From the IMG/VR virus record IMGVR_UViG_3300027736_000020, positions 120,089-184,088 of that record: DNA of 64,000 bases. The stretch is one strand, 5' to 3'. Numbering within the stretch: the stretch's first letter is position 1; each line of letters begins with the position of its first letter. A model generated the notes under the pieces. It was given only the letters and a program-made list of their open reading frames with translations. It searched no databases and was not told where the DNA came from. This document shows, in pieces, positions 17,006 through 39,300 of this stretch. Made by a program: the position numbers and the translations under genes. This stretch comes from a virus.

Positions 17006-17009
17006 GTAG

Positions 17010-17081: not shown

Positions 17082-17093
17082 CTAGGAGGAATC

Positions 17094-17620: not shown

Positions 17621-17626
17621 GAATAT

Positions 17627-17699: not shown

Positions 17700-17737
17700 C
17701 CATGAAAATAAAAGGATGCTAAAAGGTGTTTGTAACA

Positions 17738-17875
17738 ATGGTGTATGAATCATGGACAGGATCGTGGTACATGTGGAGCAATGATGTCCCGCGGATGCGC
17801 ATGGATATCAATGAGGATCCGGATTTATTTCACATGGATATTACTGGAATCAAGAAGGTTTCCTGTCATGAGTGA
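17738..17875 (+). CDS. 45-aa acidic hypothetical protein
   Basis: Reads MVYESWTGSWYMWSNDVPRM..., rich in Trp, Met and Asp. AAGG lies about 11 bases upstream. I prefer this frame to a shorter overlapping ATG at 17745 because its composition is protein-like and it couples to the next gene by an 8-base overlap. Function unknown. Confidence 0.5.
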   Translation: MVYESWTGSWYMWSNDVPRMRMDINEDPDLFHMDITGIKKVSCHE

Positions 17876-17996
17876 AGAGCTACAGTATTTGCAATTTGGA
17901 ATTACTTTACTGAACACATTCATGTTAATGTCAGTATTTTACATGCTATACACCATAGGTATGAACAACAGGAGGGGACCAAGAAATGGACACTGA
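17868..17996 (+). CDS. 42-aa single-span membrane protein
   Basis: Reads MSEELQYLQFGITLLNTF, then MLMSVFYMLYTIGM and a basic tail NNRRGPRNGH. AAGAAGG precedes the ATG. Coupled upstream by 8 bases and downstream to the dNMP kinase by 11 bases. One of five tiny membrane proteins interleaved with small genes in this window. Confidence 0.6.
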   Translation: MSEELQYLQFGITLLNTFMLMSVFYMLYTIGMNNRRGPRNGH

Positions 17997-18615: not shown

Positions 18616-18694
18616 TGATCAAGTTTCCGCCATATTCGGTGCAACAAGACTGCTTGTCTTCGCCCTGTCGCTCATCCTGCTAAGATTCTGGTGA
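18608..18694 (+). CDS. 28-aa membrane micropeptide
   Basis: ATG overlaps the end of the dNMP kinase gene by 8 bases, with AAGGA upstream. Reads MHDDQVSAIFGATRLLVFAL then SLILLRFW: an acidic N-terminus and one hydrophobic helix. Translationally coupled to the kinase. Function unknown. Confidence 0.5.
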   Translation: MHDDQVSAIFGATRLLVFALSLILLRFW

Positions 18695-18707
18695 AAGGAT
18701 TACGAAA

Positions 18708-18926
18708 ATGAATCAGGTTGTTGCTCCTCCTCCAGTCAAGCTTCCGGACATTGCCATCCCAGATTTGTACGACGACGATCCGTTGATTCCAACAGAAGAG
18801 GACGAGGAGTTGTTTGACTGGGATGAGGTTCTCAAGGGAATCCAATCAGATTTGGATGATGAGGAACCACAGGAAGTAGGTGCCGGGAGCGGGACTCGAA
18901 CCCGCACGGGGAATATCCCCTCCTGA
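18708..18926 (+). CDS. Acidic hypothetical protein whose 3' end is antisense to tRNA-Leu
   Basis: 72 aa, AAAGGA before the ATG. Residues 1-57 are strongly acidic (DDDPLIPTEEDEELFDWDEV, DLDDEE). The last 15 residues (GAGSGTRTRTGNIPS) come from reading the antisense strand of tRNA-Leu, so the gene may once have ended earlier or the tail is incidental. Acidic phage proteins of this kind sometimes act as DNA mimics; that is speculation. Confidence 0.6.
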   Translation: MNQVVAPPPVKLPDIAIPDLYDDDPLIPTEEDEELFDWDEVLKGIQSDLDDEEPQEVGAGSGTRTRTGNIPS

Positions 18927-18964
18927 TTTTAAGTCAGGTATGTCTGCCATTTCATCATCCCGGC
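18881..18964 (-). tRNA. tRNA-Leu(TAA)
   Basis: Minus-strand gene with the long variable arm of class II tRNAs. Acceptor GCCGGGA pairs with TCCCGGC. Anticodon loop CTTAAAA on CCTGA/TCAGG. Variable-arm stem GGGGATATTCCCC. No encoded CCA. Reads TTA. It overlaps the 3' end of the plus-strand gene at 18708. Confidence 0.93.
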
Positions 18965-18968
18965 TGGG

Positions 18969-19040
18969 CTGGGGCACTAGGATTCGAACCTAGGAATGCC
19001 GGATTCAAAGTCCGGAGCCTTACCACTTGGCGACACCCCA
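18969..19040 (-). tRNA. tRNA-Gln(TTG)
   Basis: Minus strand, four bases upstream of tRNA-Leu in its own direction. Acceptor TGGGGTG pairs with TGCCCCA. Anticodon loop CTTTGAA on TCCGGA-type stem. T-arm CTAGGTTCGAATCCTAG. No encoded CCA. Reads CAA. The only two minus-strand tRNAs here are adjacent, so they are probably co-transcribed. Confidence 0.93.
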
Positions 19041-19050
19041 TCGCTCACCA

Positions 19051-19056
19051 TATGAT
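19051..19056 (+). promoter_or_regulatory. Possible promoter (TTGGCG ... TATGAT)
   Basis: TTGGCG at 19027 and TATGAT at 19051 are 18 bases apart and precede AGGAAAGG and the ATG at 19082. The -35 lies within the antisense of tRNA-Gln. Plausible start of the transcript for the next three genes. Confidence 0.35.
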
Positions 19057-19081
19057 ACAGTATTCCTAGGAAAGGTCAATC

Positions 19082-19186
19082 ATGAGCGAAGAACAGAAGA
19101 AATTGAGTCCCGGAGTTCCGTACCCCAAGCCCGAGAAAAAGGTCAAGAAGAACAAGGGCTTCAAGGGCAGCAAGGAAGGCAAGTAG
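19082..19186 (+). CDS. 34-aa lysine-rich protein
   Basis: Reads MSEEQKKLSPGVPYPKPEKK..., ending in repeated KxGK units. AGGAAAGG precedes the ATG. Its stop is immediately followed by the next start. Highly basic and disordered, so nucleic-acid binding is likely. Confidence 0.6.
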   Translation: MSEEQKKLSPGVPYPKPEKKVKKNKGFKGSKEGK

Positions 19187-19486
19187 ATGTATCTCAATGA
19201 GAATCTTCGAAAATTTTTTCATGGAGAAAAGGGAGCCATTGCGAACAAGATTCGCAATGAGCATCAGACAAAGGCAATCATCGTCCTTCCCATCAAGCCG
19301 CAGAAACGCATTCATTTCTTCCTGAAGACCAAGCGTGTCCTCGCTCAGCCCAAGTATGCGTTGCGTTTTCACAAGAACATGTCTTCCGAAGCTCGCGAGG
19401 TCGTTCTGAAGTACCTCAAGAAGTGGCGTTCAAAAGGAAGCGTTGAAACTTTCTCGACAATCGGGAATATCCTGAGAACATTTTAA
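19187..19486 (+). CDS. Basic 99-aa hypothetical protein
   Basis: Starts directly after the stop of the 34-aa gene. Strongly basic (FFHGEKGAIANKIRNEHQ, KPQKRIHFFLKTKR, LKYLKKWRSKG). Two or three helices with Lys/Arg faces suggest DNA or RNA binding. No family recognised. The stop is one base from the next start. Confidence 0.75.
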   Translation: MYLNENLRKFFHGEKGAIANKIRNEHQTKAIIVLPIKPQKRIHFFLKTKRVLAQPKYALRFHKNMSSEAREVVLKYLKKWRSKGSVETFSTIGNILRTF

Positions 19487-19487
19487 C

Positions 19488-19910
19488 ATGAAAAGCTACA
19501 TTGACTTGTATGAATCTATTCATGAAGATGGTCATCTTGTCGGTGTAGCAAGAAACGAAGAGTTTTCAACGGGAACATTTTACCCTCAGTTGTACAAGCA
19601 TATCGAAAAGCTTGGAGAGGAACGTTCTTTCACGTTTGAGTCATTCGGATACCTTGTCTACGATTTTCCCGGATACAGCATCTTGGATCATCGTAAGGCA
19701 GGGCTTCCGGGTGAGTACGTTTCTCGCCCTGATAGGGATCCAAGTATGCTTCCGTTGGAATGGAGGCATTTGGCTGTTGCCAATCCCATGTTTTCCCACC
19801 GTGATCACTATTCTGGATTCATTCATCCCTCAGATAAATTGTTCATAAAAATATTGGAAAATCCACAATCTGCTGAAGGACATTATTTCATTTTTGGAGA
19901 AACCAGATAA
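19488..19910 (+). CDS. Hypothetical 140-aa protein
   Basis: 140 aa, tightly behind the previous gene. Mixed alpha/beta, with His/Tyr-rich stretches (NPMFSHRDHYSGFIHPSDKL near 105-125, EGHYFIFGETR at the end). The His/Asp spacing could be catalytic, but I recognise no fold. Confidence 0.75.
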   Translation: MKSYIDLYESIHEDGHLVGVARNEEFSTGTFYPQLYKHIEKLGEERSFTFESFGYLVYDFPGYSILDHRKAGLPGEYVSRPDRDPSMLPLEWRHLAVANPMFSHRDHYSGFIHPSDKLFIKILENPQSAEGHYFIFGETR

Positions 19911-19913
19911 TTC

Positions 19914-19922
19914 TGGTACAGT
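19914..19922 (+). promoter_or_regulatory. Possible extended -10 (TGG-TACAGT) before tRNA-Lys
   Basis: TGG-TACAGT lies 16 bases before the tRNA and fits the extended -10 type used elsewhere in this window, with one departure from TATAAT. Confidence 0.35.
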
Positions 19923-19937
19923 AGATTCGTTCAGCAA

Positions 19938-20009
19938 GGTCCTGTGGCGCAATGGTAGCGCAAGAGACTTTTAATCTTTTGGTTGTGGGTTCGACTCCCA
20001 CTGGGACCA
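19938..20009 (+). tRNA. tRNA-Lys(TTT)
   Basis: Acceptor GGTCCTG pairs with TGGGACC. Anticodon loop CTTTTAA on AGAGA/TCTTT. T-arm GTGGGTTCGACTCCCAC. The 3' end is A-CC-G, so CCA is not fully encoded. Reads AAA. Confidence 0.93.
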
Positions 20010-20024
20010 CCGTAAGGATATGTC

Positions 20025-20276
20025 ATGATCGAGTTTTCCATCAAAAAGGTTGCATATAAACATAAGAAAAATACCAAAGCGGAAACAACGGTGTTGGCTT
20101 TGGACTTGACGGAAAAAGAGGTCGAGAAAATATTGGAAACGGTGGTTCCCGGAAATTCCAAAGAACTTAGGGAATCATTATTTGCTGCCATTTCCGAATC
20201 AATCTTTTCGCGTGCAGAAAAAGCCATTGGCGAAGAGATTGCCAATGGAGAAATCTGGATGCGTATTCGTGCCTGA
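20025..20276 (+). CDS. Hypothetical 83-aa protein
   Basis: 83 aa. A beta-strand start (MIEFSIKKVAYKHKKNTKAE) precedes two charged helices (LTEKEVEKILETVVPGNSKE, LRESLFAAISESIFSRAEKA). Its 3' end overlaps the next gene by about 30 bases. No family recognised. Confidence 0.7.
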   Translation: MIEFSIKKVAYKHKKNTKAETTVLALDLTEKEVEKILETVVPGNSKELRESLFAAISESIFSRAEKAIGEEIANGEIWMRIRA

Positions 20277-20682
20277 CAAGGTTACGTGGAGAATTGGCGG
20301 ATTAAGATCCGCATCTGTTGGTTCTGCTTGGATTTCTTCAGAAGGACGAACAGGATTTTATCGTGGCAACCGCAAAATTGAAGAACCCAATCCTTTGAGC
20401 AAGGCATTCAGGCAATATTTTGCAGAAGGATTGAACGCTAAAGTTGATGCCGTTCCGGGTTCTTTTGACAATCATGATGATTTGATTGATCAGATAATTC
20501 AGCAATCTGACGCCATGACAGAAAATTGTCTGGTAACTTTTTTTGTTCCCGCAGAATTTTGGTGTCCCGTTCACTGGTTCTTGCTCGACTGCAGACATCG
20601 ACTGACTCCTCGCGAATCATGGCTCGTGGAGTCCAATGTCGATGCGCTTCGTCCGTCTGGTATGATCTTGACGGATGACTGA
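20245..20682 (+). CDS. Hypothetical 145-aa protein
   Basis: Start set at ATG 20245 (GAAGAG eight bases upstream); the frame is open further back and a GTG at 20269 is an alternative. The sequence contains GSAWISSEGRTGFYRGNRKI and a Cys/Trp-rich stretch (AEFWCPVHWFLLDCRHRLTP). No recognised family. Confidence 0.6.
   Translation: MEKSGCVFVPDKVTWRIGGLRSASVGSAWISSEGRTGFYRGNRKIEEPNPLSKAFRQYFAEGLNAKVDAVPGSFDNHDDLIDQIIQQSDAMTENCLVTFFVPAEFWCPVHWFLLDCRHRLTPRESWLVESNVDALRPSGMILTDD
20658..20666 (+). promoter_or_regulatory. Extended -10 (TGG-TATGAT) before the tRNA-Ile-like gene
   Basis: TGGTATGATCTT repeats the nrdJ promoter core exactly. The predicted start is about 18 bases before the tRNA-like gene. 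It lies inside the 3' end of the upstream CDS. Confidence 0.45.
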
Positions 20683-20690
20683 ATTCACGG

Positions 20691-20762
20691 CGGCCCGTAG
20701 CTCAGTGGTTAGAGCACGATCTTATAAATACGAGGTCATGGGTCCAATTCCCATCGGGCCTA
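20691..20762 (+). tRNA. Degenerate tRNA-Ile(TAT)-like gene
   Basis: A cloverleaf is clear: 6 bp acceptor GGCCCG/CGGGCC, D-arm GCTC/GAGC, T-stem ATGGG/CCCAT, CCA at 20763-20765. The anticodon loop reads CTTATAA (TAT, Ile). Three defects are visible: a C1-U72 mismatch, an anticodon stem CGAT/ATACG that has lost one base on the 5' side, and a T-loop TCCAATT in which the conserved T55 is C. It may be decaying, or an intentionally odd tRNA. Confidence 0.6.
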
Positions 20763-20787
20763 CCATTCAGCAAAAAGGAATATTTTG

Positions 20788-21063
20788 ATGCCAGCGATCA
20801 AAATTGAGAATATCATTTGGAGTGTCAACACAGAAGTCAGCGAAGAAGAGTATGCTACTTTCCCATTGGAGGCAATTGTTGACATACACGAGAGTTATTA
20901 TCTTCAAGAACCTATTGAGTCAATTATTCACAATGTCCTTGAAAGTTACACTAATATTCCAGCAAAAAGTTTTGATTTCAGTGTGGTCATGAGAAATGGT
21001 CCGGTACTAAAGTATTTCAAGAATCGTGAAAATACGCTGGCATTTTCCGGGCCGCTTTGGTAA
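20788..21063 (+). CDS. Hypothetical 91-aa protein
   Basis: Start at ATG 20788, with AAGGA nine bases upstream. 91 aa, acidic middle (NTEVSEEEYATFPLEAIVDI) and a predicted alpha/beta fold. Between two tRNA genes. No family recognised. Confidence 0.7.
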   Translation: MPAIKIENIIWSVNTEVSEEEYATFPLEAIVDIHESYYLQEPIESIIHNVLESYTNIPAKSFDFSVVMRNGPVLKYFKNRENTLAFSGPLW

Positions 21064-21071
21064 TAGTTTGC

Positions 21072-21144
21072 GGACCCATAGCTCAGCGGTTAGAGCATCT
21101 CTCTCATAAAGAGCAGGCCGCAGGTTCAAATCCTGCTGGGTCTA
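21072..21144 (+). tRNA. tRNA-Met or tRNA-Ile2 (CAT)
   Basis: Acceptor GGACCCA pairs with TGGGTCT (G1-U72 wobble). Anticodon loop CTCATAA on TCTCT/AGAGC with the outermost pair open. T-arm GCAGGTTCAAATCCTGC. The 3' end reads A-CCC. The CAT anticodon may serve elongator Met, or Ile if the C is lysidinylated; the sequence alone does not decide. It is not initiator-like, as no three G-C pairs flank the anticodon loop. Confidence 0.88.
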
Positions 21145-21176
21145 CCCAATCACCCATGCGAAGGAAATGTCATTCA

Positions 21177-25812: not shown

Positions 25813-26107
25813 TCTTTGGCTTTATGTCCTGCTTCCTCCATGGCACAGGTCTTTTGGCCTTTGACTTGCTTTGAGGGAGCAAGATATATTTTATGATGTC
25901 AGCTCTTCGCATGTACAATATTTTTTTTGATTGTCCGCCAATATGCTTGGCGTAAATCTTCCCATACATTGCAGCATCACGCAAGGCAGTTCTGCTTACT
26001 CCATACCGTTTTTGCGCATCATACAGAGTCAGGATATCCTGATAAGTTTCTCCATCCTGTAATGCAACGTTTTTTGCCATGTCTTCATATGTAAAAAATT
26101 TTTCCAT
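25772..26107 (-). CDS. HTH DNA-binding protein (excisionase/MerR-like)
   Basis: 111 aa from ATG 26107 (GGAG seven bases upstream). Residues about 25-75 (LTLYDAQKRYGVSRTALRDA, AMYGKIYAKHIGGQSKKI, LYMRRADIIKYI) form a helix-turn-helix with a following wing, as in excisionase-type proteins: a 'column-and-wing' DNA reader. The basic C-terminus may add DNA contacts. It is divergent from the MazG-type gene with 22 bases between start codons, so it may regulate that gene. Confidence 0.75.
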   Translation of the reverse strand: MEKFFTYEDMAKNVALQDGETYQDILTLYDAQKRYGVSRTALRDAAMYGKIYAKHIGGQSKKILYMRRADIIKYILLPQSKSKAKRPVPWRKQDIKPKIIASEHQRGEIEG

Positions 26108-26129
26108 TTTATTCTCCAAGGAGCGGCAA

Positions 26130-26525
26130 ATGTCTCAGAATAATCATCAGTTGAGTGTCAGGGAATTCATGAGTGCGATGGGTCAGGCAACCCCCGATTC
26201 CTTTTCTCCTGAAAATTTTCCATATGAACTCCGTTCAAAACTTATTATTGAGGAAGCAAATGAGTTCAAGGATGCTTGTGAAAAAAAAGACCATGTTGAA
26301 ATCATAGACGCAATTTGCGATTTATTGTATGTAACATATGGTGCAGCGATTGCATTGGGAATAGATATTGATGTATTTTTTAATGAAGTGCATCGATCAA
26401 ATATGTCGAAGCTTGATCCTGAAACAGGCATGCCTATTGTCAGGTCAGACGGCAAGATAATGAAATCATGGGCGTATTCACCTCCTGATCTTTCCACATT
26501 GCTTGATCATCTTTCCGCAAAATAA
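26130..26525 (+). CDS. MazG-type nucleotide pyrophosphohydrolase
   Basis: 131 aa from ATG 26130 (AAGGAG upstream). All-alpha NTP-PPase family. The metal-binding motif EEANE is at residues 41-45, and E57-x-x-D60 with D64 (EIIDAICDLLYVTYG) complete it. FNEVHRSNMSKL matches the family's C-terminal helix. Phage MazG-like enzymes hydrolyse dNTPs or ppGpp-type nucleotides and alter host nucleotide pools. The 3' end overlaps the convergent macro/NADAR gene by 19 bases. Confidence 0.85.
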   Translation: MSQNNHQLSVREFMSAMGQATPDSFSPENFPYELRSKLIIEEANEFKDACEKKDHVEIIDAICDLLYVTYGAAIALGIDIDVFFNEVHRSNMSKLDPETGMPIVRSDGKIMKSWAYSPPDLSTLLDHLSAK

Positions 26526-29041
26526 TCTCCAGCTGGTGCGTACCAGAATCCACTTCTGAATCCATCTCTTGATTGCGAGTTCTGGTAAAAAACAACTGTT
26601 GATCGCGTGCCATGCGGCGCACTTCTTGTGTAGAAGTTGCGTCCATCGGCTTGATTGTTTAATGTTTCTCTTTCTCTTTCCGAAACTTCTTTTATTTTTC
26701 CGCTTATTCCCTTGAGCTCCACGAAGACTCCTTCGGGTGTGGATACAAGTCTGGAAAAATTTTGACCTTCGCGGTTTGTAAATTGCTGCAATGCTTGTTT
26801 TGGCAACAAAACCGTTGTTCCGTCTCCTGCCAATTGTGCCGTGCTATACAATTTGCTATGAATTGAATTTTTGTTTCGAAGATGCGTCTTGAGATCAACA
26901 AGATGATCTTCTGGAGTTTGCAAAGATATCTGCGGTGTAGTTTCTTGTGGTTGACTTTGCGTATCCTGTTGCATTTGCAAAATCAATTGATTGCGTAATT
27001 CCATCAGAAGTTTTCCCAGTACATTCTGCCCTGATTGCAATCCATCACGTCGACCTACGTTGCTTGCACCCCAGAAAATATCATTTCTCAACCCGGTTGA
27101 TTCGACAATATCTGCGGTCCCTGTTGCAACAAGTTGTTCCCTGAATTCCTTGCTATATCTTGCTTTCATGGTAAGCACCCGACGCATGATATCTATCTTT
27201 TTTCCATGAAATTCAGGATCAAATAATTCTGGATTTTTTCCTTGCAAATTTTTTACAAAATCTTTTACATCTTTTGATGTGGGATTTTCGCCCATTGTTT
27301 CTGTTCCGGGAAGTCCTTTTATTTTCCCTTCAATAATACGCACTCCGAGAGGAGTAATATTTCCGTTTTGGTCTTTTAGTAATTTTGCCGCCTGATAAAT
27401 GGTTTCAACACTTTTTCCATACACAGTTGTTTCTTGTCGAGTTCCATCATTTTTTAAAGATGAAATTTTGAAGGGGATAGAAATATTACTGAAATTAGAA
27501 AATATTGGTTTCCATGTTTGACTGGTTGTTTGATATGTGCCATAGGTATGCACACCATTAACATCCATTCGATCAGTTGTATCAGGAAGACCAACGGGAA
27601 TTTGTCCTCGATCAAAGTCGATGATATGTGCCTCGTGAGGAGATCCACCAAAAGTATTAATGATATGTTTTCTTGTCTCTTCCCAGCCTCCTGTGTTGCC
27701 AACGCTTCCTGTATTTCCAACGCTTCCTGTAACAGCTCCTCCTATTTCTCCGTTGAGTGCAGCAATGCGAGGCATGGCTACTTTCCATGGATTTCCATCA
27801 GGGCTTGGATTGTTATCAAGATATTCTTTCAGAGCCGTTATTGCTCCGTTTGTATCATCTCTTCTTGCTTGATCCCTCCAATCTCTTTTCACAAATAATG
27901 ATGCAACAAGAGGGCCAACTGGAGTTCCGTCCTTTCCTATCGGTTGATGAACAAAGACACTTCCATGTGCCATGGATGCAGAGTTTCTCAAGTACTTTCC
28001 TACTGCAGACAAATAATCCGTGTCCTTGTATTTATCGCGAAAATCCATGGCAATGCCTCTACCCATTACAGGAACGCCTGCGCCATTAAGAACAGTATTG
28101 CATGTATTCACGATCATGTTATAGCCACCTGACTTTTGAAAATCAGGATTCGTGATGTCTCCCTTGATTCCTTCTTTGACTTCGGGAGAAGCAGCCGGAG
28201 CGCCCGGAACGGTTGCTGATATGAGTGGTTCCTCTTTTTGTGAATCCCAATGCGCAATTATTTGATTGAGTCTATCAAAAGATGGAATTTCTTTTTGAAA
28301 CATTCCGCGAAGAGTATCCTTGTCTTTTGAAAGATCCAATCTTTGTCGTGCTGCAATTGCTCTCATTGGATGAAGAATGATATCTTCAAAATATTTTAAT
28401 GGTTGATCAGCATTGCCTGTTTCTTTTTGCAATTCACGTATGTGAAAAATATCCGGAATTGGAACTCCAAGTTTGTCAGAAAGCCCTTTTGCAATAATTC
28501 TTCTATGACAAAAATTATTTGGATTAGAAAAGTCTTCAAAGCATGCCATTCCCACTCTTTGTATTACTGAGTTTTCGTCTTTGACTGCATCAACAGCCGC
28601 TGATAATTTGTCGTGAACATTTTCCGGAGTGACATATGGACTAATATTTATCGCCATTTGCTTTCTTGCTGCACGAGATCCAAGAAGGTCCGATTCTTGT
28701 CCTTGTCTCGCTTCTCTCAAATGTTCAGCTCTAGGTGTTGAAGCGGCCCAAAAATCTCTTATTGGTCCTTCAGGAATCGTTGCGGGAGATGCAACAATAT
28801 CAAACGCTTTACGTTGTGACCATTTGCGAGCTGCAGTGCCAGTTCCAGCAGGATGCCCTAACGAAACAGGAAGCACAATCCGAGTTGGATCTGCGATTGC
28901 GGTTACATTTTCAGCATGATTTGTCGTGAAAAGCGTGACGCGATGACCTAAAGATGGAGAAGACTCTGAAGTATCAGGATTGAGAGACTCCACGGGTTCT
29001 TCTGATGCACCTTCTGATTTTTTGAACAAGAGATAAACCAT
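26507..29041 (-). CDS. DUF488-like / DarG-type macrodomain / NADAR fusion protein
   Basis: 844 aa from ATG 29041: a GGAG sits nine bases before it, while an ATG 15 bases earlier lies at the very mRNA start. Numbering here is from that upstream ATG. Residues 40-210 look like DUF488 (GMACFEDFSNPNNFCHRRII resembles its C-E-x(n)-C-H-R core). Residues 295-480 are a macrodomain of the DarG type (GDI, VNTCNTV, VMGRGIAMDF, KRDWRDQARRDDT). Residues 517-690 are NADAR (PIFSNFSNISIPF, ETIYQAAKLL, ESTGLRNDIFWGASN, NVLGKLLMELR). Residues 715-849 are unrecognised. Known: DarG macrodomains remove ADP-ribose from thymidine, NADAR proteins from guanosine. Inference: a broad reverser of DNA ADP-ribosylation by DarT-type phage defence. 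The N-terminus (MVYLLFKKSEG) matches neighbouring large proteins. Confidence 0.85.
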   Translation of the reverse strand: MVYLLFKKSEGASEEPVESLNPDTSESSPSLGHRVTLFTTNHAENVTAIADPTRIVLPVSLGHPAGTGTAARKWSQRKAFDIVASPATIPEGPIRDFWAASTPRAEHLREARQGQESDLLGSRAARKQMAINISPYVTPENVHDKLSAAVDAVKDENSVIQRVGMACFEDFSNPNNFCHRRIIAKGLSDKLGVPIPDIFHIRELQKETGNADQPLKYFEDIILHPMRAIAARQRLDLSKDKDTLRGMFQKEIPSFDRLNQIIAHWDSQKEEPLISATVPGAPAASPEVKEGIKGDITNPDFQKSGGYNMIVNTCNTVLNGAGVPVMGRGIAMDFRDKYKDTDYLSAVGKYLRNSASMAHGSVFVHQPIGKDGTPVGPLVASLFVKRDWRDQARRDDTNGAITALKEYLDNNPSPDGNPWKVAMPRIAALNGEIGGAVTGSVGNTGSVGNTGGWEETRKHIINTFGGSPHEAHIIDFDRGQIPVGLPDTTDRMDVNGVHTYGTYQTTSQTWKPIFSNFSNISIPFKISSLKNDGTRQETTVYGKSVETIYQAAKLLKDQNGNITPLGVRIIEGKIKGLPGTETMGENPTSKDVKDFVKNLQGKNPELFDPEFHGKKIDIMRRVLTMKARYSKEFREQLVATGTADIVESTGLRNDIFWGASNVGRRDGLQSGQNVLGKLLMELRNQLILQMQQDTQSQPQETTPQISLQTPEDHLVDLKTHLRNKNSIHSKLYSTAQLAGDGTTVLLPKQALQQFTNREGQNFSRLVSTPEGVFVELKGISGKIKEVSERERETLNNQADGRNFYTRSAPHGTRSTVVFYQNSQSRDGFRSGFWYAPAGDYFAER

Positions 29042-29064
29042 TGTTTTTGTCTCCATTTTTGTTT

Positions 29065-29135: not shown

Positions 29136-31226
29136 ATGAAATTTTTTGAAAAAACCCCTTTTCCGTTCAAGATAAATAGTTTTCGCAAGGCAGAAGAAAC
29201 ACCATCTGAAGGTAATTTTGTCAATAGTGACGGCAATCCTGTTGAAAGAGCGGTTCGTCCATCTTTCGCAAATGGTGCAACAAAACCTTTTATCGGCAAT
29301 GCGCAAGGTGAGCGTGTAAATAGGGTAAAAAATCCATCTTTTTCTGGACAATCTAGTCCTTTTTTTGTCAATCGAGAAGGAAGTGTTGTTCAAGCTGCAA
29401 CACTTCCTTCTTATACAAACACTGAAGGACAAACTGTTGACGCGCTAGCCAATCCTTTGTTTGTAAACAAAGAAGATGCCCCTGTTCCAAGAGCAAGGAA
29501 TCCTGCTTTTCTATCTGATGAAGAGATAGTGCATGCTTCGCCAAGAAATGTTTCAAATTTCTATTCTCCTTCTGTAACGGGAAAACAAGCAAAAACGAGC
29601 AGAGCAGTAGACGAAATCCGAGCAGAAAGAGAACAAAACCCTCGTTCAGCGAATGAGGATGGCATAGCCGTTGATCCAATGATTGTCCCACTTTACGTAA
29701 TAGACGAAAATGGAGACGTAACCACTGCGCTGAGGCGAGATTCTTTTGGTCCTTATTCATACATGCAACATAATGACAGTGATTACGTGGGAGCAGAGAG
29801 AAGATTAACTGGTGCACAAGGAAATTGGGGTGAGGAAGGTCTTGGTCCTGTAGCAGATGATTCTGAATTTGCATCACCTACGGCAACGCGGGCAGAAATG
29901 CTTGCAAGAATTCTTCGTGAAGAATACCTGAAGAGAGAATATCTAGCACAGCAGGGAGAGAAAATTGGAGGATTGCCTTTCAGTCCGCTTGCTACAAGTG
30001 CAAGATACTATGCTGGTAATTTTGATGCAAAAAATATGAATGCAAACAATTCTCAAGGACAATCTCCAAAAATGTGGGCATTCAGGGAAACGATGCAGCT
30101 TCCCGATAATCGTGAAGAACAAAAAGATTGGCGGCATATGACAACAGACTCGCCAACACCAAATTCTGGAAAACCTTATGATCTTGGAGAATCTTTTCGT
30201 AATTCTGCAGCTCAAGATATTGCAGACATGATTGAAGCTCATTTACGTGCCACTGGACAATGGCCAGAAAATAAACCAAGTATAGAAGTTAAAGCATTCA
30301 GGCAAGGTCCTTCTTCGAAAAATTTTCAAGCACAGAAAACAAAAAAAGCGGAAGAAGAAAAAGTAGATAAACTAAAAAATAGTTTTTCAAATATTGCAAA
30401 TGAGGAAATAATAAACCACATTCAATCATTCAGAGATTATGCAGTAAGATCAATGTGGGAAAATCCTGATCATTTACGAGATTATGAAGCAGCAGGGAAA
30501 ATACTTCTTGATCGATTGAACGAATCATTGAAAGATGATGATCGTTCTGAAATCTTTTTGGAAGATTTGGACACAGAAGGAATGGATGAAGAAGAGATTG
30601 CTACATGGCATGCAATGACAAATGCCACTAACGAGAGACTTGTGCATTATTTTTCTGGTCATTATCCAGATTTTGTTCACGATGCAGCTCTTTCTGAAAT
30701 ATCTTTTAGATTGCAACCAGAAGAAGATGAGCCACAAGCTCCGCAACCGCCAGCTCCGCAACCGCCAGCTCCGCAACCGCCAGCTCCGCAACCGCTAGCT
30801 CCGCAACCGCTAGCTCCGCAACCGCCAGCTCCGCAACCGCCAGCTCCGCAACCGCCAGCTCCGCAACCGCCAGCTCCGCAACCGCCAGCTCCGCAACCGC
30901 CAGCTCCGCAACCGCTAGCTCCGCAACCGCCAGTCTCAACAAATTCATTTGAATCAATCATGCATAATTTTGGTCATGTCAAGGGAACGGGAACGAATCT
31001 TAGCGATCAAGAAATAAATTCATTGACTCCTGAACAGTTTGATATTTACTCTGAGGCTTTGATGAATGGATCATTGGATGCATGGCTGGAGACAAATACT
31101 CCGAAACCGTCGAATAATCAAACTGTATCGACACCAGAGATTAATAGATCCGCAGCTGTTGATCCAGATGTTGATCCAGATCCAGATGATGAATATTTAC
31201 CTGTCGGTATTGATGATTTTTTTTGA
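29136..31226 (+). CDS. Large protein with N-terminal ~24-aa repeats and a PAPQP linker
   Basis: 696 aa. It begins MKFFEKTPFPFKINSFRK, close to the PFPFAI start of the genes at 44951(-) and 46034(-). Residues 27-121 are four to five imperfect repeats of a unit like 'F-V-N-x-x-G-x-x-V-x-R-A-x-N-P-S-F'. Residues 150-530 are acidic and helical. Residues 534-600 are about 13 copies of PAPQP, with a tail ending DPDPDDEYLPVGIDDFF. No enzyme motif. The layout (short sorting-like start, modules, Pro linker) recurs in the next two genes. Probably a virion or ejected protein. Confidence 0.75.
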   Translation: MKFFEKTPFPFKINSFRKAEETPSEGNFVNSDGNPVERAVRPSFANGATKPFIGNAQGERVNRVKNPSFSGQSSPFFVNREGSVVQAATLPSYTNTEGQTVDALANPLFVNKEDAPVPRARNPAFLSDEEIVHASPRNVSNFYSPSVTGKQAKTSRAVDEIRAEREQNPRSANEDGIAVDPMIVPLYVIDENGDVTTALRRDSFGPYSYMQHNDSDYVGAERRLTGAQGNWGEEGLGPVADDSEFASPTATRAEMLARILREEYLKREYLAQQGEKIGGLPFSPLATSARYYAGNFDAKNMNANNSQGQSPKMWAFRETMQLPDNREEQKDWRHMTTDSPTPNSGKPYDLGESFRNSAAQDIADMIEAHLRATGQWPENKPSIEVKAFRQGPSSKNFQAQKTKKAEEEKVDKLKNSFSNIANEEIINHIQSFRDYAVRSMWENPDHLRDYEAAGKILLDRLNESLKDDDRSEIFLEDLDTEGMDEEEIATWHAMTNATNERLVHYFSGHYPDFVHDAALSEISFRLQPEEDEPQAPQPPAPQPPAPQPPAPQPLAPQPLAPQPPAPQPPAPQPPAPQPPAPQPPAPQPPAPQPLAPQPPVSTNSFESIMHNFGHVKGTGTNLSDQEINSLTPEQFDIYSEALMNGSLDAWLETNTPKPSNNQTVSTPEINRSAAVDPDVDPDPDDEYLPVGIDDFF
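30741..30932 (+). repeat. 15-bp tandem repeats (PAPQP coding)
   Basis: About 13 copies of CCGCAACCGCCAGCT, some with GCTAGCT in place of GCCAGCT. In frame, so copy number can change without breaking the gene. Encodes a rigid Pro/Gln linker. Confidence 0.9.
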
Positions 31227-31328
31227 AAGTTTTTATGATTATTGGAAAATACGCGTCAAAATTATTTAAAAATTTTCATGATTATCCTTTGGTGAAAAAA
31301 ATAAAAAAGATTCATAAGAGTACAAATA

Positions 31329-33182
31329 ATGGTTCAGTTATTAATAAAGAAAACAAATCAACCGGAAAACCTTGAAAAATCAATTGGTGATTGGTTTAGA
31401 AGACTATTTGGTGGAACAAAAAGCGACAAAAAAACTGTCTTCAAAAAAACTTCGCCTGTATCACACATGTTTCCCGATTTATATTCCGAGCCAATTACTG
31501 AAAAACCTCTCTTATACAAAAAAAATGACCAAGGAATCATGGAGGCAACTCTTTCAAAACAAGAGCATGACGAATGGGAAAAACTTATTAAAAAAATAAC
31601 TGACGGTTTTTTCCGCAGAAAAGTAAATGAACATTTCAAAGATAGTGAAAAATCAGACAAATGGATAAGACAATCTCTTGGCAACTTAACAGAGAGACAA
31701 GATGTAGCAAGAAGCAAAAAAATTATTCAAGATTTTCTTGAAAAGATAATTCCTGCGCATAAAGTGCAAATTCCTTCCAGCATTGAATCTTCCGAAGATT
31801 ATCTGAAAAAACTTTTTACTGAAGAACAGCAAAAAAGTATTTATGATATGATCCCTGATTTGCCGATGAAGGCAAAATTTCCTGAACTATTGCCAAATGA
31901 CAAGGCAAACACAACAGAACCATCAGTCGTAGCACAACCATCAGTTGTAGCAACAGCACCAGTCGTAGCACAACCATCAGTCGTAGCACAACCACCAGTT
32001 GTAGCAACAGCACCAGTTGTAGCAACAGCACCAGTTGTAGCAACAGCACCAGTTGTAGCAACAGCACCAGTCGTAGCAACAGCACCAGTCGTAGCACAAC
32101 CATCAGTCGTAGCACAACCACAACCAACTTCCGTCGGTGTTGGGCAATCACTGCCTTCTCCAATCCGTACTGCTCGCGTGCTTACCGTTTCAGAGCGCCG
32201 CGCTCTCAATCCTAATTATGATACCACTTTAGGTACTTCAATACATGATTTTATAAATAGATTTATAACAAGAGTCATTATTGATGCAGATGAATCAACT
32301 GGTGATTCTTTGCAAAAAAAATCATTTATACTAGAAAAACTCAGATCACTGGCTGCAACTGCAAAAGTTCAACCAAAAGGAATATTTAATTCAGGAATTC
32401 CAGCTGCTGATTTTGCTGTGGATTTCTGGAAATTGTGCAATTCAACGCAATTCAATGCCTTGAATATTGGAAAAACAAAAACAGACTTTCAAGCACACAT
32501 TGAAGATTCTTTTTTGCGGAAAAAAAGACAAATAGAAATTGATTCTCCCTTGAATCAAAAATGGAGTGAAGGAGACATAACTGAAGTTTTGGCAGATGAT
32601 AGGCAATCTGAAAAAATAACCAAACATCCACAAACAGGAAAAGATGAAGCCCTGATTGTGGATGTTTTTAGGCCCAGAATATTACAAAATGGAAAACAAA
32701 TCATAGCACCATTTGTTGCATTAGGAAAAATTCCTTCGCTTTCATCATCGATTGATCCTGTTCCTGATCAGGGAAACTCAGGAATTAGCAACGTAGAAGG
32801 AAAAAATAATCCTGCAAATTCTGCTAGTGTAACTGCTCCCACAGAGCCAACATCTGTGACTCCCACAAATCCTTTGCCATTTGAAATGACAATAAATGCC
32901 AATAAGTCTAAAGGAGAATTTAAAAAATTTGGTGAATCAATTGCGGATTATGCAACAATTTCAAGAATAAAAACAAATGGATCAAATCAAACGCATCAAA
33001 TTTCCTATCAACCAGAACATTACGATAAAATATTAGAAGAAATGCAAAAACACCCAACATTAAGCTCACAGGCAATACTATTCGAAAAACACGGAGTTGG
33101 TTCAGTTGAATCTCCTGAAGTCGTTCCTCCCCCTGAAATCAACCCTACGCCAGCAAAGGACGAAGCCGATGACGTTTTTTAA
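31329..33182 (+). CDS. Large protein with VVATAP linker; KK-T start motif
   Basis: 617 aa. Begins MVQLLIKKTNQPENLEKSIG, sharing the M-x-LL-x-KK-S/T start with the macro/NADAR protein and LEKS with the proteins at 3711 and 41024(-). Residues 12-185 are a folded, charged segment. Residues 198-265 are a Val/Ala/Thr/Pro linker of six-residue units. Residues 280-450 are alpha/beta (HDFINRFITRVIIDADESTG). The C-terminus is disordered with Pro and Thr. No enzyme motif. Overlaps the next gene by 14 bases. Confidence 0.75.
   Translation: MVQLLIKKTNQPENLEKSIGDWFRRLFGGTKSDKKTVFKKTSPVSHMFPDLYSEPITEKPLLYKKNDQGIMEATLSKQEHDEWEKLIKKITDGFFRRKVNEHFKDSEKSDKWIRQSLGNLTERQDVARSKKIIQDFLEKIIPAHKVQIPSSIESSEDYLKKLFTEEQQKSIYDMIPDLPMKAKFPELLPNDKANTTEPSVVAQPSVVATAPVVAQPSVVAQPPVVATAPVVATAPVVATAPVVATAPVVATAPVVAQPSVVAQPQPTSVGVGQSLPSPIRTARVLTVSERRALNPNYDTTLGTSIHDFINRFITRVIIDADESTGDSLQKKSFILEKLRSLAATAKVQPKGIFNSGIPAADFAVDFWKLCNSTQFNALNIGKTKTDFQAHIEDSFLRKKRQIEIDSPLNQKWSEGDITEVLADDRQSEKITKHPQTGKDEALIVDVFRPRILQNGKQIIAPFVALGKIPSLSSSIDPVPDQGNSGISNVEGKNNPANSASVTAPTEPTSVTPTNPLPFEMTINANKSKGEFKKFGESIADYATISRIKTNGSNQTHQISYQPEHYDKILEEMQKHPTLSSQAILFEKHGVGSVESPEVVPPPEINPTPAKDEADDVF
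31922..32121 (+). repeat. 18-bp tandem repeats (VVATAP/VVAQPS coding)
   Basis: About 11 copies of units such as GTTGTAGCAACAGCACCA and GTCGTAGCACAACCATCA. In frame. Confidence 0.88.
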
Positions 33183-35286
33183 AATGCTCGTACTGAAAAA
33201 ATCTTCAGAAGAGCCACCCATTGATCCATCATCTTCTCCTGAAGTGCATCCAATCGTCGATAAATTGAATCAGGCTCGTAGTGCTGCCGATGTGGTCAGA
33301 GTAATGGGGGAATGGAGAAAAGATCCAGACGCAATGGAAAAAGTAGGTAATTTTGCAGAATTGGCACGGGCCCGCCAAAGGGCGCTAACTGGTGTTCAGC
33401 CATTTGTGCCCACACCAAGACCTGCACCAAGACCTTCATCAAACCCTGCACCATCAAACCCTGCACCATCAAACCCTGCACCATCAAACCCTGCACCATC
33501 AAACCCTGCACCATCAAACCCTGCAACACGCGCTGTTGACGACGATGGTCCACCAGATGATGATGATCTATGGGCTGGTTATGATAATTTGAGAAATGAT
33601 CGTCCTGATACTCGCCTCGTTGCTCCATTTACACCAGAAGGTTTTACACCAGAAGGTGTCACAACTGAAAGACCGACTGAGCTGATAGCTGAATTCATTC
33701 CAGAATCAGATCAAAGAAGAAGACGCAGGGAACTTTCTCCTGCTGTACGCAGTCTTCTGATCAGGCCAGAGCACAGAGGCCCCAATGCTCTTTTCCCTAT
33801 GATGTTGCTAGGGCCTCCTGTGCAACGAGTAGCCGCAACATTACCAGAAAATCAAGGTGTTGAAATTTCCGAAGAAAAACAAGCGCTTATTGACAAGATC
33901 ATGGGTACACCAAAACCTCCACAGAACCAGAATGATTTGTCTCCCGAGCAACGTACAGCACAAAGAATAAATGCCATGATTAGGGCAGATTTTACACCAG
34001 CTGAACAAATGCAAGCACAGCAAAAACTTATTGATCTTGATGTTCCTAGAGATGATTTTGCAAAATTAAAGACAATGTCAATGGAAGATTTACAGCTTAT
34101 GTCGGACATGATTGATCATCATTCAGCAAAAATTGACACATTAAAAAAATTAAATATTGAAAACAGTGATTTGCTTGATAATGATCAATTGAAGCAATTG
34201 ATCACTGAAAAAGGCAGGGCAGACCTTTTTGATCCAGATCCTTTGGATGAAATGTTCCAAGGAAAATCTGATTTGACAAGAGCCGCAATGATCAAGAATG
34301 AATTCATCAAAAAAGAGCTTAAAAGAATCAGTCATTACATAAGCAGCAGTAATAGAGAAAATATTTTTGGAACAGACGATCCCTCTGAATACACAAAATT
34401 TGTTAGGAAACTTCATGAAATTACACAACATTATCAACAAACTGATAATGTGAAAATTATCACTCAAGCGCTTAATTCAGGAATGCCTGTTGGATACTAT
34501 GAATTAAATTTATTCCGCGAACACAAAGGTCTTCCTCCGCTCACAAGAGAAGAAATTGATGCAGCGATGTCTGAAGAACGCAAAAAAGAATATGAATTGC
34601 CTTCTTTGCTTACCACTGGTACAGCAGATCCTAAACAACGAGAAAAACTATTGCAACAATATGGATACTTTATTGATTTGATGAATAAAGATAAAACATA
34701 TGATAAAGATGCTCGCGCAGCCAATTTGTACGGCATGCTTCTTATTCACAATATGATAAAAAGGCAAAATGCAAGAACTGCACCAGCAAGAACTGCACCA
34801 GCAAGAACTGCACCAGCAAGAACTGCACCAGCAAGAACTGCACCAACAGGAATTGCACCAACAGGAATTGCACCAGAAGCAGACATTTGGATACCAGCGT
34901 TGGAAAAGACGATCAAAGACCCTTCAATTTTAAGTTTTCCCAATCTTGCCGCAAAAATGCAAACAGCAATTGCTCACGCAAAAACAGGCGATATAAAATC
35001 AATGATGAGTGTATATTTTGACGCAATCACATCTACTGAATTTCGTCTTGGAAATACGAATAAAATTCGTGAAAGAGTAGAAATAGAAATGAGAGGGGAA
35101 GACTCTACCCAGTTAAGAAATGAATTTCAGTCGTTTGAGACCCTTGTTCGTCTGTTTCTCAGGGATAAATTTAAAATGGAACTTTCTACACCAGAAGGAA
35201 TTTGGTCACCATCGCAAAAGGGAAAACCAATGAAATATGTATTGACCAGCACAGAAGACGGCAAAGAGCAACAGTTTGAAACCTAA
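33169..35286 (+). CDS. Large protein with NPAPS and ARTAP linkers; KK-S start motif
   Basis: About 705 aa from ATG 33169 (AGGA eight bases upstream); ATG 33184 would begin [12 protein letters not shown], matching MVYLLFKKSEGASEEP of the macro/NADAR protein, and is a fair alternative. Residues about 95-125 are NPAPS repeats, and about 535-565 [10 protein letters not shown] repeats. Between them are long helical segments ([40 protein letters not shown]). The C-terminal 140 residues look folded. No enzyme motif. Its stop is two bases from the convergent gene. Confidence 0.72.
33441..33526 (+). repeat. 15-bp tandem repeats (NPAPS coding)
   Basis: About six copies of CCATCAAACCCTGCA, in frame. 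Confidence 0.88.
34771..34875 (+). repeat. 15-bp tandem repeats (ARTAP coding)
   Basis: Five copies of GCAAGAACTGCACCA and two of ACAGGAATTGCACCA, in frame. Confidence 0.9.
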
Positions 35287-35288
35287 AA

Positions 35289-35594
35289 TCAAGAAGATTC
35301 TTTTACAATATACAAATATCCATCAAAATTATCTTCTATTGCCGGATCTAGTGAATGATCATATTCCCTCGACTCATAGTACTCTATGAATTGCAATGCC
35401 TTTTGTCTACGAAAATTCCATACATATTTTTTGTATTTTGGATTGTTTCCAACAAATAAACTTTTATCAGCTGGATTTATGATAAACAATATATCACCGG
35501 TAATATCAAGTATCTGGTTGTGAATTGAGCGTTCTTCTTGCCTCATCAAATCCAGCAATTCTTCCCAATTTTCGGTGTCAATTATTGTGTTCAT
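35289..35594 (-). CDS. Acidic hypothetical 101-aa protein
   Basis: 101 aa, AAGG upstream of the ATG. Sequence (NWEELLDLMRQEERSIHNQI, LDITGDILFIINPADKSLFV, WNFRRQKALQFIEYYESREY) suggests an alpha/beta fold. It follows the lytic transglycosylase by 8 bases and so may share its transcript. Function unknown. Confidence 0.72.
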   Translation of the reverse strand: MNTIIDTENWEELLDLMRQEERSIHNQILDITGDILFIINPADKSLFVGNNPKYKKYVWNFRRQKALQFIEYYESREYDHSLDPAIEDNFDGYLYIVKESS

Positions 35595-35601
35595 AAAACC
35601 C

Positions 35602-36108
35602 TTACTTAAAATTTCTTAATACGGCGGCCAAAAGAAAAGTCAACAAAAGCTCAGGTTGTGGTGTTTCCTGAGGCGTTGTCATGAATGGAACAGGCGTTGG
35701 GGTGACAATAACTGTGACACACGCTGATGCTTCGTTGAGCGAGTTTATCAGTATTGGTTTTACATACGCATTCATTTCCCATTCAGGAATGGATTTCCAA
35801 TTCATGACGGTGGTATTCCCAACATTATACGCTGACAATGCATATTCGTATGGATTTGTCCTGTCAGCGTAGATATTCAGATAATTCCGCAAAATCTTGG
35901 CAGCATAAAACAATGATTCAACAGGATTCCAGACATCGACACCGGGATGTGAAAGAGGATTGATTTGTGCAATTCCGTAGGATCCTGATCCTGAAGCCTT
36001 TGCATCCCATCTGCTTTCCTTTTGAATCAACGCAAAGAAAACTGCTGCACTGATTTGTGCTTTTTCCGCAGCGGCACAAGCAACGTGCTCGTATAGCTCT
36101 CGAAACAT
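35602..36108 (-). CDS. Lytic transglycosylase (SLT fold), probable endolysin or virion lysin
   Basis: 168 aa, GGAG eight bases upstream. Cleaves the glycan strands of peptidoglycan. Catalytic Glu31 lies in ALIQKESRWD, followed by GSGSYGIAQINP (40-51) and AYNVG (93-97), the three standard SLT blocks. There is no signal peptide. The C-terminus has a Thr/Pro linker (TPTPVPFMTTPQETPQPE) and a hydrophobic end LLLTFLLAAVLRNF that may insert in a membrane. With the holin-like protein at 41027 it can form a lysis set; a tail-borne role is also possible. Confidence 0.88.
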   Translation of the reverse strand: MFRELYEHVACAAAEKAQISAAVFFALIQKESRWDAKASGSGSYGIAQINPLSHPGVDVWNPVESLFYAAKILRNYLNIYADRTNPYEYALSAYNVGNTTVMNWKSIPEWEMNAYVKPILINSLNEASACVTVIVTPTPVPFMTTPQETPQPELLLTFLLAAVLRNFK

Positions 36109-36147
36109 AATGGTGCTCCAATCAGATAAGAATAGAAAAAGGCGTAG

Positions 36148-36309
36148 CTAGTCTTTTTTCTTGGGAGTGAGATTTGTTAGCAGCAGCTTGATTTCTTCAA
36201 CGGTGAGGTCGGCAAACTGTCGTCTCGGCTGAAGTTGTGGCTGCCTCCAAATCAGCGCATGGCGGCGTGGTAGCCGCTCACACTCTTCTTTTTTCCGGGG
36301 GTCTGTCAT
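36148..36309 (-). CDS. 53-aa basic hypothetical protein
   Basis: Start at ATG 36309, with GGAGG upstream. Sequence (MTDPRKKEECERLPRRHALI, WRQPQLQPRRQFADLTVEEI) is basic at the N-terminus with a C-terminal helix. No family recognised. Lies 39 bases before the transglycosylase gene. Confidence 0.65.
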   Translation of the reverse strand: MTDPRKKEECERLPRRHALIWRQPQLQPRRQFADLTVEEIKLLLTNLTPKKKD

Positions 36310-36370
36310 GCAACCTCCATGTGGAAGTATACCCGGCATGAAGCCCCTGTGTCCAATTTTTTTTTATTTT

Positions 36371-39300
36371 TCACACACCACCAAATGGATGGAACTGTGC
36401 GGCAGCAATTTTTTGCTCCGCTTCAGTTGGTGAAATGCCAAAAAGCTTTGCCAATCCATCAATGACTTGATTATTTGAAAGCGACGCGGAAATTTGGCGT
36501 TCAGATAAATCTGCTTGTTCGCTGTTTGTCATCAGTTCAGGCTCATTTACCATAAATGATTTTGATAATTTTTCATCAATAGATTCAGGGGAAACACCAA
36601 TGATATTTGATAATGTTATTTTTTCATCACGAGAAAGATTGCTCTTTTCAACAGGTGTCATGTCACGCATTGGAGGAACCAATGTTTTTATTCCTGTTTG
36701 ATATAGCACTGGATGAGAAATTGCTGTTTCCAGTGAATCTTCTGTGTTAAGCCAATATTGTTCTGGATTCAATTTATAGTGTTGATATGCATTTTGAATT
36801 ACAATCCTGTTCCATTCAGTATGCAAATCAAGATCTGGATTATTCATTCCTTTTTTCATTTGAGAATTTTGTATCCAATTTTTAATAATTGATTCATTTT
36901 CATCTTTTAGTACTATATTCTGAAGCATTGCAAGATCATCCAAAACAAAAAATTCAATTTTTTCGTCTTCGGTCATTGATTTTGCAAGTTCTTGTCTATT
37001 TAAATGATATTTTTCTGATTCTGTCAATTCTTTTTTTGCATTATGAGAAAATAGGAAAAATGGTTCTTTTGTTGTCATTGAGGTGGCCTTTCTTTCAAAT
37101 GATCTGGTAAGCGGAGTAGTAGTCGGTTTTGGAGTGCTGGTCGGTTTTGGAGTGCTGGTTCGTTTTGGAGTGCTAGTCGGTTTTGGAGTTTTTGTTGGTG
37201 AAGCAGCAGGGGTATTTGATTGCGAATTCCAAAATTTATCAATTTGTGCTTGAGACGTTGCGCGAATTCTATTCGAAGTGCTATCTGGATTATCTGCCAA
37301 TTCCTTTACTGTCGGAGGAGTATTTGGATGCCATTGTGTTGGAGTTAAATCTGGATCATCCCAGTTACCACTATCATCTACTATTTCTCTTTTATTGTAA
37401 TCTATTTGTGGTGGAACCAATTCACTCGGATCTCTCGGATCTGAAGTTATTCCGTTAGAACGCGCCCAGTCATCCCACTCTTTTGTACCATAGAGTGGAG
37501 CACCTCCTGGCTTATTCTGAAGCTCCTCCCATTCTTCCGAAGTCCAGTTATCCTGAATGCCTAAAACAGGATTAATTTTAGACATTCCTGTGGATCTTGT
37601 CGCTGTGGGTGTAGCTGTAGGAGTTTCCGATTGTTTAGCTTGTGCAGTAGCTGCTTCCATGGTTGCATATGCACGATGTCTTCCTGTCGGATTTGCATTT
37701 CTTGGATCGTCAGGAAAAGTAGCTGTTCTTTCAGGCCCTCTTGATTGTTGCGCCGATCTTGATCCTTGTGAGGCAAATTGATTTGCAAGAAGATTTGCGG
37801 CTACGTCTTCAGCAGAAGGTGTAGGTGTAGTCTGTCCTGCAATTCTGGTTGCTGCATTATTTACTGCTTCAGGAACATTTCCTCCTCTTGTATCAAGAGG
37901 CTCTTCACTGTGCAAACTTGGAAAATCTCTCAACATTGGTTTTGCTGGATCTGGAGTTTTTCTTTCTGAAGGCGCATTTGTTGGGCGCACAGACAAATCA
38001 CTAAGCGTTTTGTCACTATCAAGATATCCGCCGTAATTTTCTTTAAACATATTTTGCGCAGCTCTGATTCCTCCTCTTGCAGAATCAATAAATCTATCTG
38101 TAAAAGATTGAGGCGTTTTTGTTGAATCTGCCACTCGTGTTGAAGTTACTGAGGCAGTAGGTGTGGGTGTTGATGTTTCAGTAGGTGTGGGTGTTGGCGT
38201 TTCTGATCCTTTGGCTCGGGCAATTGCTGTAGCTTTTGAGTTGTCAAGAAGCACTTTTATTTCATTTGGAGTCAGTGTAGATCTTGTTACTGGTGTTGGC
38301 GTGCCACCTGTGCGACGATATTCCCATCCGTCCATCATTTCTGGAGTTGAAGTTGGAGTTGACATATCTCGCTTGGGAATCATTGCTGATAATGCTGGAG
38401 TTATAAAGTTTTTATCAAGCCAATCAATTAAAGCATTTAGTTCTTTATCTTTACCATCATCAGGTCTCCGAAAAATCATTGGCTCTCTTGTGGCTGTTTG
38501 AGTCGGTGTTGGGTCGGTAGGAGTATCTTCCTCCTCAATCGTGTTTGCAGCACTTGGCGTCTCTGTAGCAGGCACTGATGTTGCTGTAGGGCTTGGCGTC
38601 GCTGTAGCACTTGGCGTCGCTGTAGAAGGCACAGCTGTCGCTGTAGCACTTGGCGTCGCTGTAGGAGGCACAGCTGTCGCTGTAGCACTTGGCGTCGCTG
38701 TAGGAGGCACTGCTGTCGCTGTAGGGCTTGGCGTCGCTGTAGGAGGCAGAACTGTCGCTGTGGGACTTGGTGTTTGTGTGTTTGCAGCAATTTCATTTAT
38801 TGCAGATTCGTCGCCTTGATTGATACGTGAGATAAAATCATCATATGGAGTTCTATTGCCAAGCCAATTTGTAACTCCTTGTCCTTTTGTTTCCAGTTTT
38901 TCTCTTGGATTAAGTGCTCTTGGACCAATAAAATTTTTTACTCTATTATCTTCATCAATTTCTTCTTGTGTTTTACTTACATGAGGTGTGGACCATCCAA
39001 AACCGCCACCTAAATTTACAATTTGTCCTTCTACTGGATTATTTTTTTGCCATTCTTGATCTTTGTCTCCAATTATTGGATAAACAAGATCTCCTTTTTG
39101 ACTGTATTTTCCGTTATACCGAAATGGATCATAATCCGGTATTCCAAGTAAATTTTCTACAAGGCTTTGTGGAGGTTTTACGACATTTTCCATGAGAGAT
39201 TGATGTGCAAGTAAAGCGCGATTATTTTTATCGAGTATTTGTTTTTCAGTTAATGGTTGATGATAATCAGTATAATTTCTCAAAGGTTTTTCTGTTTGCG

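Follow-up and report, generated by a model that had tools for sequence, protein, structure and literature searches.

What does a bacteriophage do with a protein that joins, in one chain, a DUF488-like domain, a macrodomain of the DarG/TARG1 type and a NADAR domain? The gene for such a protein lies in the 64,000-nucleotide stretch analyzed here (the window), which forms the 64-kb end of a virus record of 184,088 bp. The record encodes a tail sheath, a portal-like protein, terminase, DnaE, ThyA, RNR, SSB and a prim-pol, and therefore comes from a tailed, contractile phage; its source is a large, uncultured, myovirus-like bacteriophage of roughly 184 kb. The first 163 bases of the record recur as its last 162 with 97.5% identity, inside a small repeat family, and because the end repeats the start, a nearly complete record is possible despite its classification as linear. 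At the record's end, window positions 61600–64000, lie several copies (94–100% identical) of stretches from its first 350 bases (L009:1-349), and they finish with the 162-base repeat of its start. This terminal redundancy with a repeat array suggests a near-complete genome. The G+C fraction is 0.53–0.58 at window positions 58000–64000 compared with about 0.40 mid-window, and is similar (0.55) at the record's start, which fits a map that is circular or terminally redundant better than a chimera. Eight tRNA genes are present at 16746–21146, with the Leu and Gln genes opposite in strand to the others. The RNR homologue of a related contig (L156, G004:105981-109715) is 1245 amino acids long versus 851 in this phage and carries an insert of about 357 residues, from CVTGDTFV to VVHNC, that is an intein; the window's copy is without it.

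The open reading frame (ORF) occupies 26507–29056 on the minus strand and consists of 849 codons free of internal stops. The ATG at 29041 has a Shine-Dalgarno-like GGAG nine nucleotides upstream and is therefore the likelier start on sequence grounds, nothing comparable being found before the ATG at 29056. It agrees with the end coordinate given in the initial annotation. Residue numbers used here nevertheless count from the ATG at 29056. Every peptide quoted in that annotation is present in the ORF, and its recognition of three domains in one chain is upheld by HMMs, by a model of the macrodomain and by check profiles that exclude the window sequence and were searched against every ORF in the record. 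Below E=0.1 these profiles match this ORF alone, with E-values of 8e-8 (DUF488-like), 8e-19 (NADAR) and 4e-13 (macro). Features of the locus are given in Table 1.

Table 1. Coordinates (window positions) of the multidomain gene, its parts and the adjoining gene
Feature	Position	Strand	Basis
CDS, multidomain protein (844 aa, beginning MVYLLFKKSEG)	26507..29041	-	open frame; likelier start = Met6 of the 849-aa ORF
N-terminal motif MVYLLFKKSEGASEE, residues 6-20	28997..29041	-	hydrophobic-[KR]K[ST], in kind common to six more proteins
DUF488-like domain, residues 38-205	28442..28945	-	profile built without the window E=8e-8; PHROG 2450 4e-4; Pfam DUF488 negative
DarG/TARG1-type macrodomain, residues 296-485	27602..28171	-	HMMs, AlphaFold2 model, Foldseek match to 5m3i
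NADAR domain, residues 515-695	26972..27514	-	PF08719 E=9.6e-15; conservation in 87 NADARs; match to 2b3w
C-terminal region, residues 700-849	26510..26959	-	Pfam and NCBIfam: nothing significant
MazG/PRA-PH-type nucleotide pyrophosphohydrolase	26079..26525	+	PF01503 6e-19; PHROG 671 1e-38

No relatives of the 849-aa protein were found in viral contigs by whole-protein and single-domain scans, or in genome contigs by a whole-protein scan, and tblastn in phages and plasmids returned partial matches to NADARs and macrodomains, none of them over the whole protein. Pattern-based scans found no second protein with the triple architecture in the collections searched. The gene is also absent from nine related contigs, all of which are fragments, so that this absence is weak evidence. 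Since the whole protein lacks a detected relative, the fusion cannot be argued for from its conservation. Folded from its single sequence, the whole protein reached a pLDDT of 34.6, and that model was left out of the interpretation. A full-length alignment made together with the domain relatives misplaced the macro rows and was discarded; the macrodomain alone was then folded.

The presence of the NADAR domain is certain from its sequence. The Pfam model PF08719 matches residues 518–691 with 55.6 bits (curated cut-off 35.1), and the YbiA structure 2b3w is matched by the domain. Residues E551, K558, K602, E652, D659, W662, G676 and N678 were noted, and all of these apart from K602 are retained in an alignment of 87 NADARs, across which E551 is conserved in 100%, K558 in 90% and E652 in 95%. 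The catalytic Glu and Lys, E88 and K95 in the E. coli C7 NADAR, have E551 and K558 as counterparts, and the last strand's acidic residue is E652. YbiA, the DarT1-linked NADARs and phage gp30.3 share this fold family and the catalytic E, K and E. However, DarT1-linked NADARs are of an Asp type and gp30.3 is of a His type, whereas the subfamily-defining position is Glu652 here, a glutamate common to YbiA, and neither the aspartate nor the DarT1 neighbor of the DarT1-linked (BC4488) NADARs is present. Other phage NADARs have about 30% identity to this one, which differs in sitting inside a long chain. No second NADAR was found in the record. Other NADARs are joined to SLOG (YAcAr) or restriction-modification domains, and in viral contigs (L029, L026 and L047) a NADAR is fused ahead of DUF1156/methylase-like proteins or of type I restriction specificity proteins (Methylase_S).

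Characterized NADARs are hydrolases that remove ADP-ribose from guanine in DNA and RNA. In vitro, those of YbiA and T4 hydrolyze ADP-ribosyl-guanine; in cells, they gave no protection against DarT1 (PMC11125620). A rival reading is a housekeeping role, in which the protein would repair or detoxify damaged nucleotides or RNA ends and the NADAR would work in RNA repair or as an N-glycosidase on reactive riboflavin intermediates. The NADAR does match the riboflavin-intermediate N-glycosidase model TIGR02464 at 44 bits, below its cut-off of 73.7, and the nucleotide-metabolism set of this phage is large (ThyA, RNR, a dNMP kinase and the MazG-type enzyme). However, partial Pfam scans of the record returned no RNA ligase, KptA or riboflavin gene, and such a role needs no macrodomain; we consider it highly improbable.

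The macrodomain is matched over about residues 297–435 by three HMM libraries (PADLOC DarG, 3.9e-6; NCBIfam antitoxin_DarG, 2.2e-6; PHROG 335, 2.7e-6), although the NCBIfam DarG equivalog score of 23.8–27.2 bits is far below the cut-off of 250. An AlphaFold2 model of the domain (pLDDT 77.7) has as its top Foldseek match in the PDB the DarG structure 5m3i, with E=2.1e-8 and a TM score of 0.78 by target length, which agrees with the DarG-type macrodomain named in the initial annotation. The best PDB neighbors are the macrodomains of M. tuberculosis DarG, TARG1 and T. aquaticus DarG (TaqDarG). When residues were mapped onto TaqDarG by profile alignment, T20, N22, K80 and W83 corresponded to T318, N320, K390 and W393, K29 to R333, and Q34 to D338. 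The catalytic lysine K80 and N22 are thus both kept. DarG/TARG1 macrodomains use this lysine in removing ADP-ribose from thymidine or glutamate.

Compared with the macrodomain of the DarG antitoxin (DarTG2; 5m31, 5m3e and 5m3i), the phage domain has the same fold and equivalents of the catalytic Lys, N22, T20 and W83, but adds two loop insertions and the fusion to a NADAR. Loop 1 contains a six-residue insertion immediately after N320, and in the phosphate-binding loop 2 (about 431–457) some 18 residues are inserted between the strand VAMPR and the helix WEETRK. The region equivalent to Gly117–Gly122 can be aligned in two registers, and its pLDDT in the model is below 50. In the MAFFT register the GxGNGG loop of DarG becomes N435-G-E437-I-G-G, which may give equivalents of G117N and G119E, and in an alternative register, read by eye, GNTGGW (453–458) takes the place of the Gly-rich loop. 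Because loop 2 is rebuilt and of low confidence, and because G119E, which E437 would reproduce in one register, markedly inhibits TaqDarG (PMC5179494), hydrolase activity of this domain is not assured. K390 and N320 are retained, as are E551, K558 and E652 of the NADAR, but the loop-2 glycines could not be placed confidently.

These features could also mean that the NADAR is the sole active hydrolase, the macrodomain being a binder of ADP-ribose or of ADP-ribosylated targets and the DUF488-like domain regulatory or inactive. The expanded, poorly modeled phosphate loop with its possible G117N and G119E equivalents would fit, as would the failure of the Pfam Macro model to detect the domain. However, K390, N320, T318 and W393 are all retained and the second register preserves GNTGGW for the Gly-rich loop, and we regard this explanation as unlikely.

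DarG has a C-terminal DarT-binding domain, whereas none was recognized in this protein, and no DarT-family transferase is encoded in the record. The absence of DarT argues against a self-contained toxin-antitoxin pair, and a local toxin-antitoxin operon was rejected for this reason. The MazG-type gene is convergent with the ORF as initially described, the two overlapping by 19 bp. Its homologue in two related contigs (terminase 78% identical) sits among replication genes; as the adjacency is not kept there, a MazG partnership was rejected and the MazG-type neighbor is probably outside the system.

The DUF488-like domain is recognized by its landmarks VTLFTTN (40–46), CFEDF (172–176) and CHRR (183–186). 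The check profile was made from seven relatives and its alignment spans residues 155–202, the CFED...CHRR half, while the N-terminal strand was matched by reading. The domain was traced through a mycobacteriophage protein containing CFEKLSKPDAWCHR and through a set of 16 IMG/VR loci; most of these loci have LTLFTN..., VPVRITLGAPR and LLCFEDL..WCHRR. Mycobacteriophage gp65, at E=0.2, looked like a chance match until its CFEKLS...WCHR motif was read, and this led to the DUF488-like relatives. The family found by the CFED...CHRR motif (L004, L117-L132) shares with this protein both that motif and the N-terminal LTLFTN strand. Pfam DUF488 (PF04343) found nothing in the record and DUF488-N3a (PF22751) had no match in the window. 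Because the relatives themselves reach DUF488 or DUF488-N3a only below the cut-off (best 19.1 bits versus 27), "DUF488-like" is the appropriate strength for this claim. DUF4326 was considered in its place, but no Pfam search returned DUF4326 and the relatives lean toward DUF488 and DUF488-N3a.

Combinations of this general kind have been described. In the text of two papers (PMC9503650, PMC7824862), tandem NADAR-Macro virus proteins are reported together with fusions of Macro, NADAR and SLOG domains to DUF4326, and the first of these suggests that phages combine Macro, NADAR and SLOG domains for a division of labor. As described there, these proteins likewise place differently folded ADP-ribose-processing domains in one phage chain, some have a rhodanese-phosphatase-type partner, and a counter-immunity role is proposed for them. 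Their partner is described as DUF4326, whereas here it is DUF488-like; the present macrodomain is of the DarG/TARG1 type. Of 80 viral NADAR loci sampled, seven have a separate macro ORF close to the NADAR gene, within 10 nucleotides in three of the seven and within about 0.8 kb in all, which is consistent with a division of labor.

In the main rival explanation the substrate would be something other than nucleic acid, namely small NAD+-derived signals or toxins of host immunity (cyclic ADPr variants, ADPr-1''-phosphate) in which each domain cuts a different bond. This is the prediction made in PMC9503650 and PMC7824862 for phage Macro, NADAR and SLOG proteins as well as for their fusions with DUF4326. 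A DUF488-like domain beside Macro and NADAR parallels the rhodanese-phosphatase-type DUF4326, and the same phage has a 2222-aa protein with a DprA/SLOG-type domain. However, the closest solved macrodomains are DarG and TARG1, with the ADPr-1''-phosphate phosphatase Poa1p ranking lower among the PDB matches, and the NADARs assayed to date act on base-linked ADPr. We judge this explanation possible though rather unlikely.

Judged by sequence or model, one chain combines a NADAR that is intact and of the YbiA type, a DarG/TARG1-type macrodomain retaining the catalytic lysine, and an N-terminal DUF488-like domain. We tentatively favor a multidomain counter-defense protein acting through ADP-ribose processing, because the domains can be assigned and their catalytic residues are conserved, because DarG/TARG1 macrodomains and NADARs are known to hydrolyze ADP-ribosyl groups from nucleic acids or proteins (PMC5179494, PMC11543638, PMC11125620, PMC11833690), and because macro genes adjoin NADAR genes in the viral loci noted above. 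During infection the NADAR would take ADP-ribose off guanine in DNA or RNA, and the macrodomain, through K390, would clear it from another acceptor, which could be thymidine, a carboxylate or a terminal phosphate. One polypeptide would in this way clear at least two kinds of the ADP-ribosyl marks or products that host defense transferases leave behind, with the DUF488-like domain perhaps acting on the released or a related nucleotide. The rebuilt, low-confidence loop 2, the insertion beside N320 and the lack of protection against DarT1 by the YbiA and T4 NADARs in cells weaken this reading. Phage answers to DarT are already known in AdfA and AdfB (PMC11481870), likewise phage-borne, but these bind, or are thought to bind, DarT, whereas the protein described here would act enzymatically.

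The initial annotation had proposed that the protein could cancel the DarT1 and DarT2 modes together. Because the NADAR is of the YbiA type, whose tested members failed in cells against DarT1, caution is due, and the expanded macrodomain loop, Glu437 at the G119 position in one register and the lack of a DarT in the record further weaken the claim. DarT1 and DarT2 as joint targets are just one possibility. The broader alternative in that annotation, processing of ADP-ribosylated DNA or of NAD-derived metabolites, stands alongside the confirmed domain identities.

The start of the protein, MVYLLFKKSEG, resembles those of six other proteins in the record, including MLFFKKSSVTE, MISFRKSPTEE and MKKLKKSQKD; in this set an alternative Met was also accepted as the start. 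Among 92 ORFs of at least 180 aa, seven have the pattern hydrophobic-[KR]K[ST] at most 12 residues from a possible start (mean 0.4 and maximum 3 in 1000 shuffles), a statistic that is indicative only, since the pattern was picked after the sequences had been viewed and any Met in the first 40 residues was allowed. An earlier, looser pattern had nine matches in 4840 N-terminal residues versus three in 49,593 residues elsewhere. Carriers of the motif include two gene neighbors (31329–33182 and 33097–35286) and a protein of the tail gene region (L013:1-1449). The simplest guess from these sequences is a packaging or processing signal.

More speculatively, the motif might mark the protein as one of a set that is packed into the virion and delivered along with the phage DNA, as "polyvalent" proteins are; its occurrence in the tail-region protein would fit this. 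Polyvalent proteins (PMC5512222) likewise hold several conflict-related domains per phage protein and are packaged in the virion, whereas packaging here is conjectural. The text of that paper makes no mention of NADAR or DUF488. Upstream in the same record (L014:7471-14139, 15129-19979 and 2692-6783) are giant proteins of 2222, 1616 and 1363 aa, with a DprA/SLOG-type domain, a UvrD helicase and an HD domain respectively and the remainder without assignment, which are candidate polyvalent proteins. Window positions 29136–46088 and L009:5245-16410 encode a set of large proteins of low complexity, mostly without Pfam matches, in which short motifs recur. They have N-terminal W/FFxxS[IV]HPxxRKSE or NPFPFAIWP, C-terminal KSWFx[FVL]S[IV] and long Pro/Thr/Ala repeats (PAPQPPAPQP, VVATAP, VPPTATAVPPTATP), and resemble virion or cargo proteins that have terminal signals in common.

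In its fullest form the counter-defense reading would have a virion-delivered protein with two working de-ADP-ribosylases that differ in fold and in base, for guanine (NADAR) and thymidine (macrodomain), and a third enzyme processing their product, neutralizing both DarTG classes. We think this version very unlikely.

Fusions of this type are known in outline. What is new is the combination of DUF488-like, DarG-type and NADAR domains, together with the N-terminal hydrophobic-[KR]K[ST] motif common to six other proteins; no paper naming NADAR and DUF488 together was found in the literature searched. Should both hydrolase domains prove active, the protein would offer a natural reagent for removing nucleic-acid ADP-ribosylation of two kinds, and would be evidence of phages countering several ADP-ribosylating defenses with one molecule. 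A tie between the DUF488-like domain and ADP-ribose metabolism would make the DUF488-like family testable. Finally, a role of the N-terminal motif in packaging or processing, if there is one, would allow the cargo of these uncultured phages to be read as a group from sequence alone.
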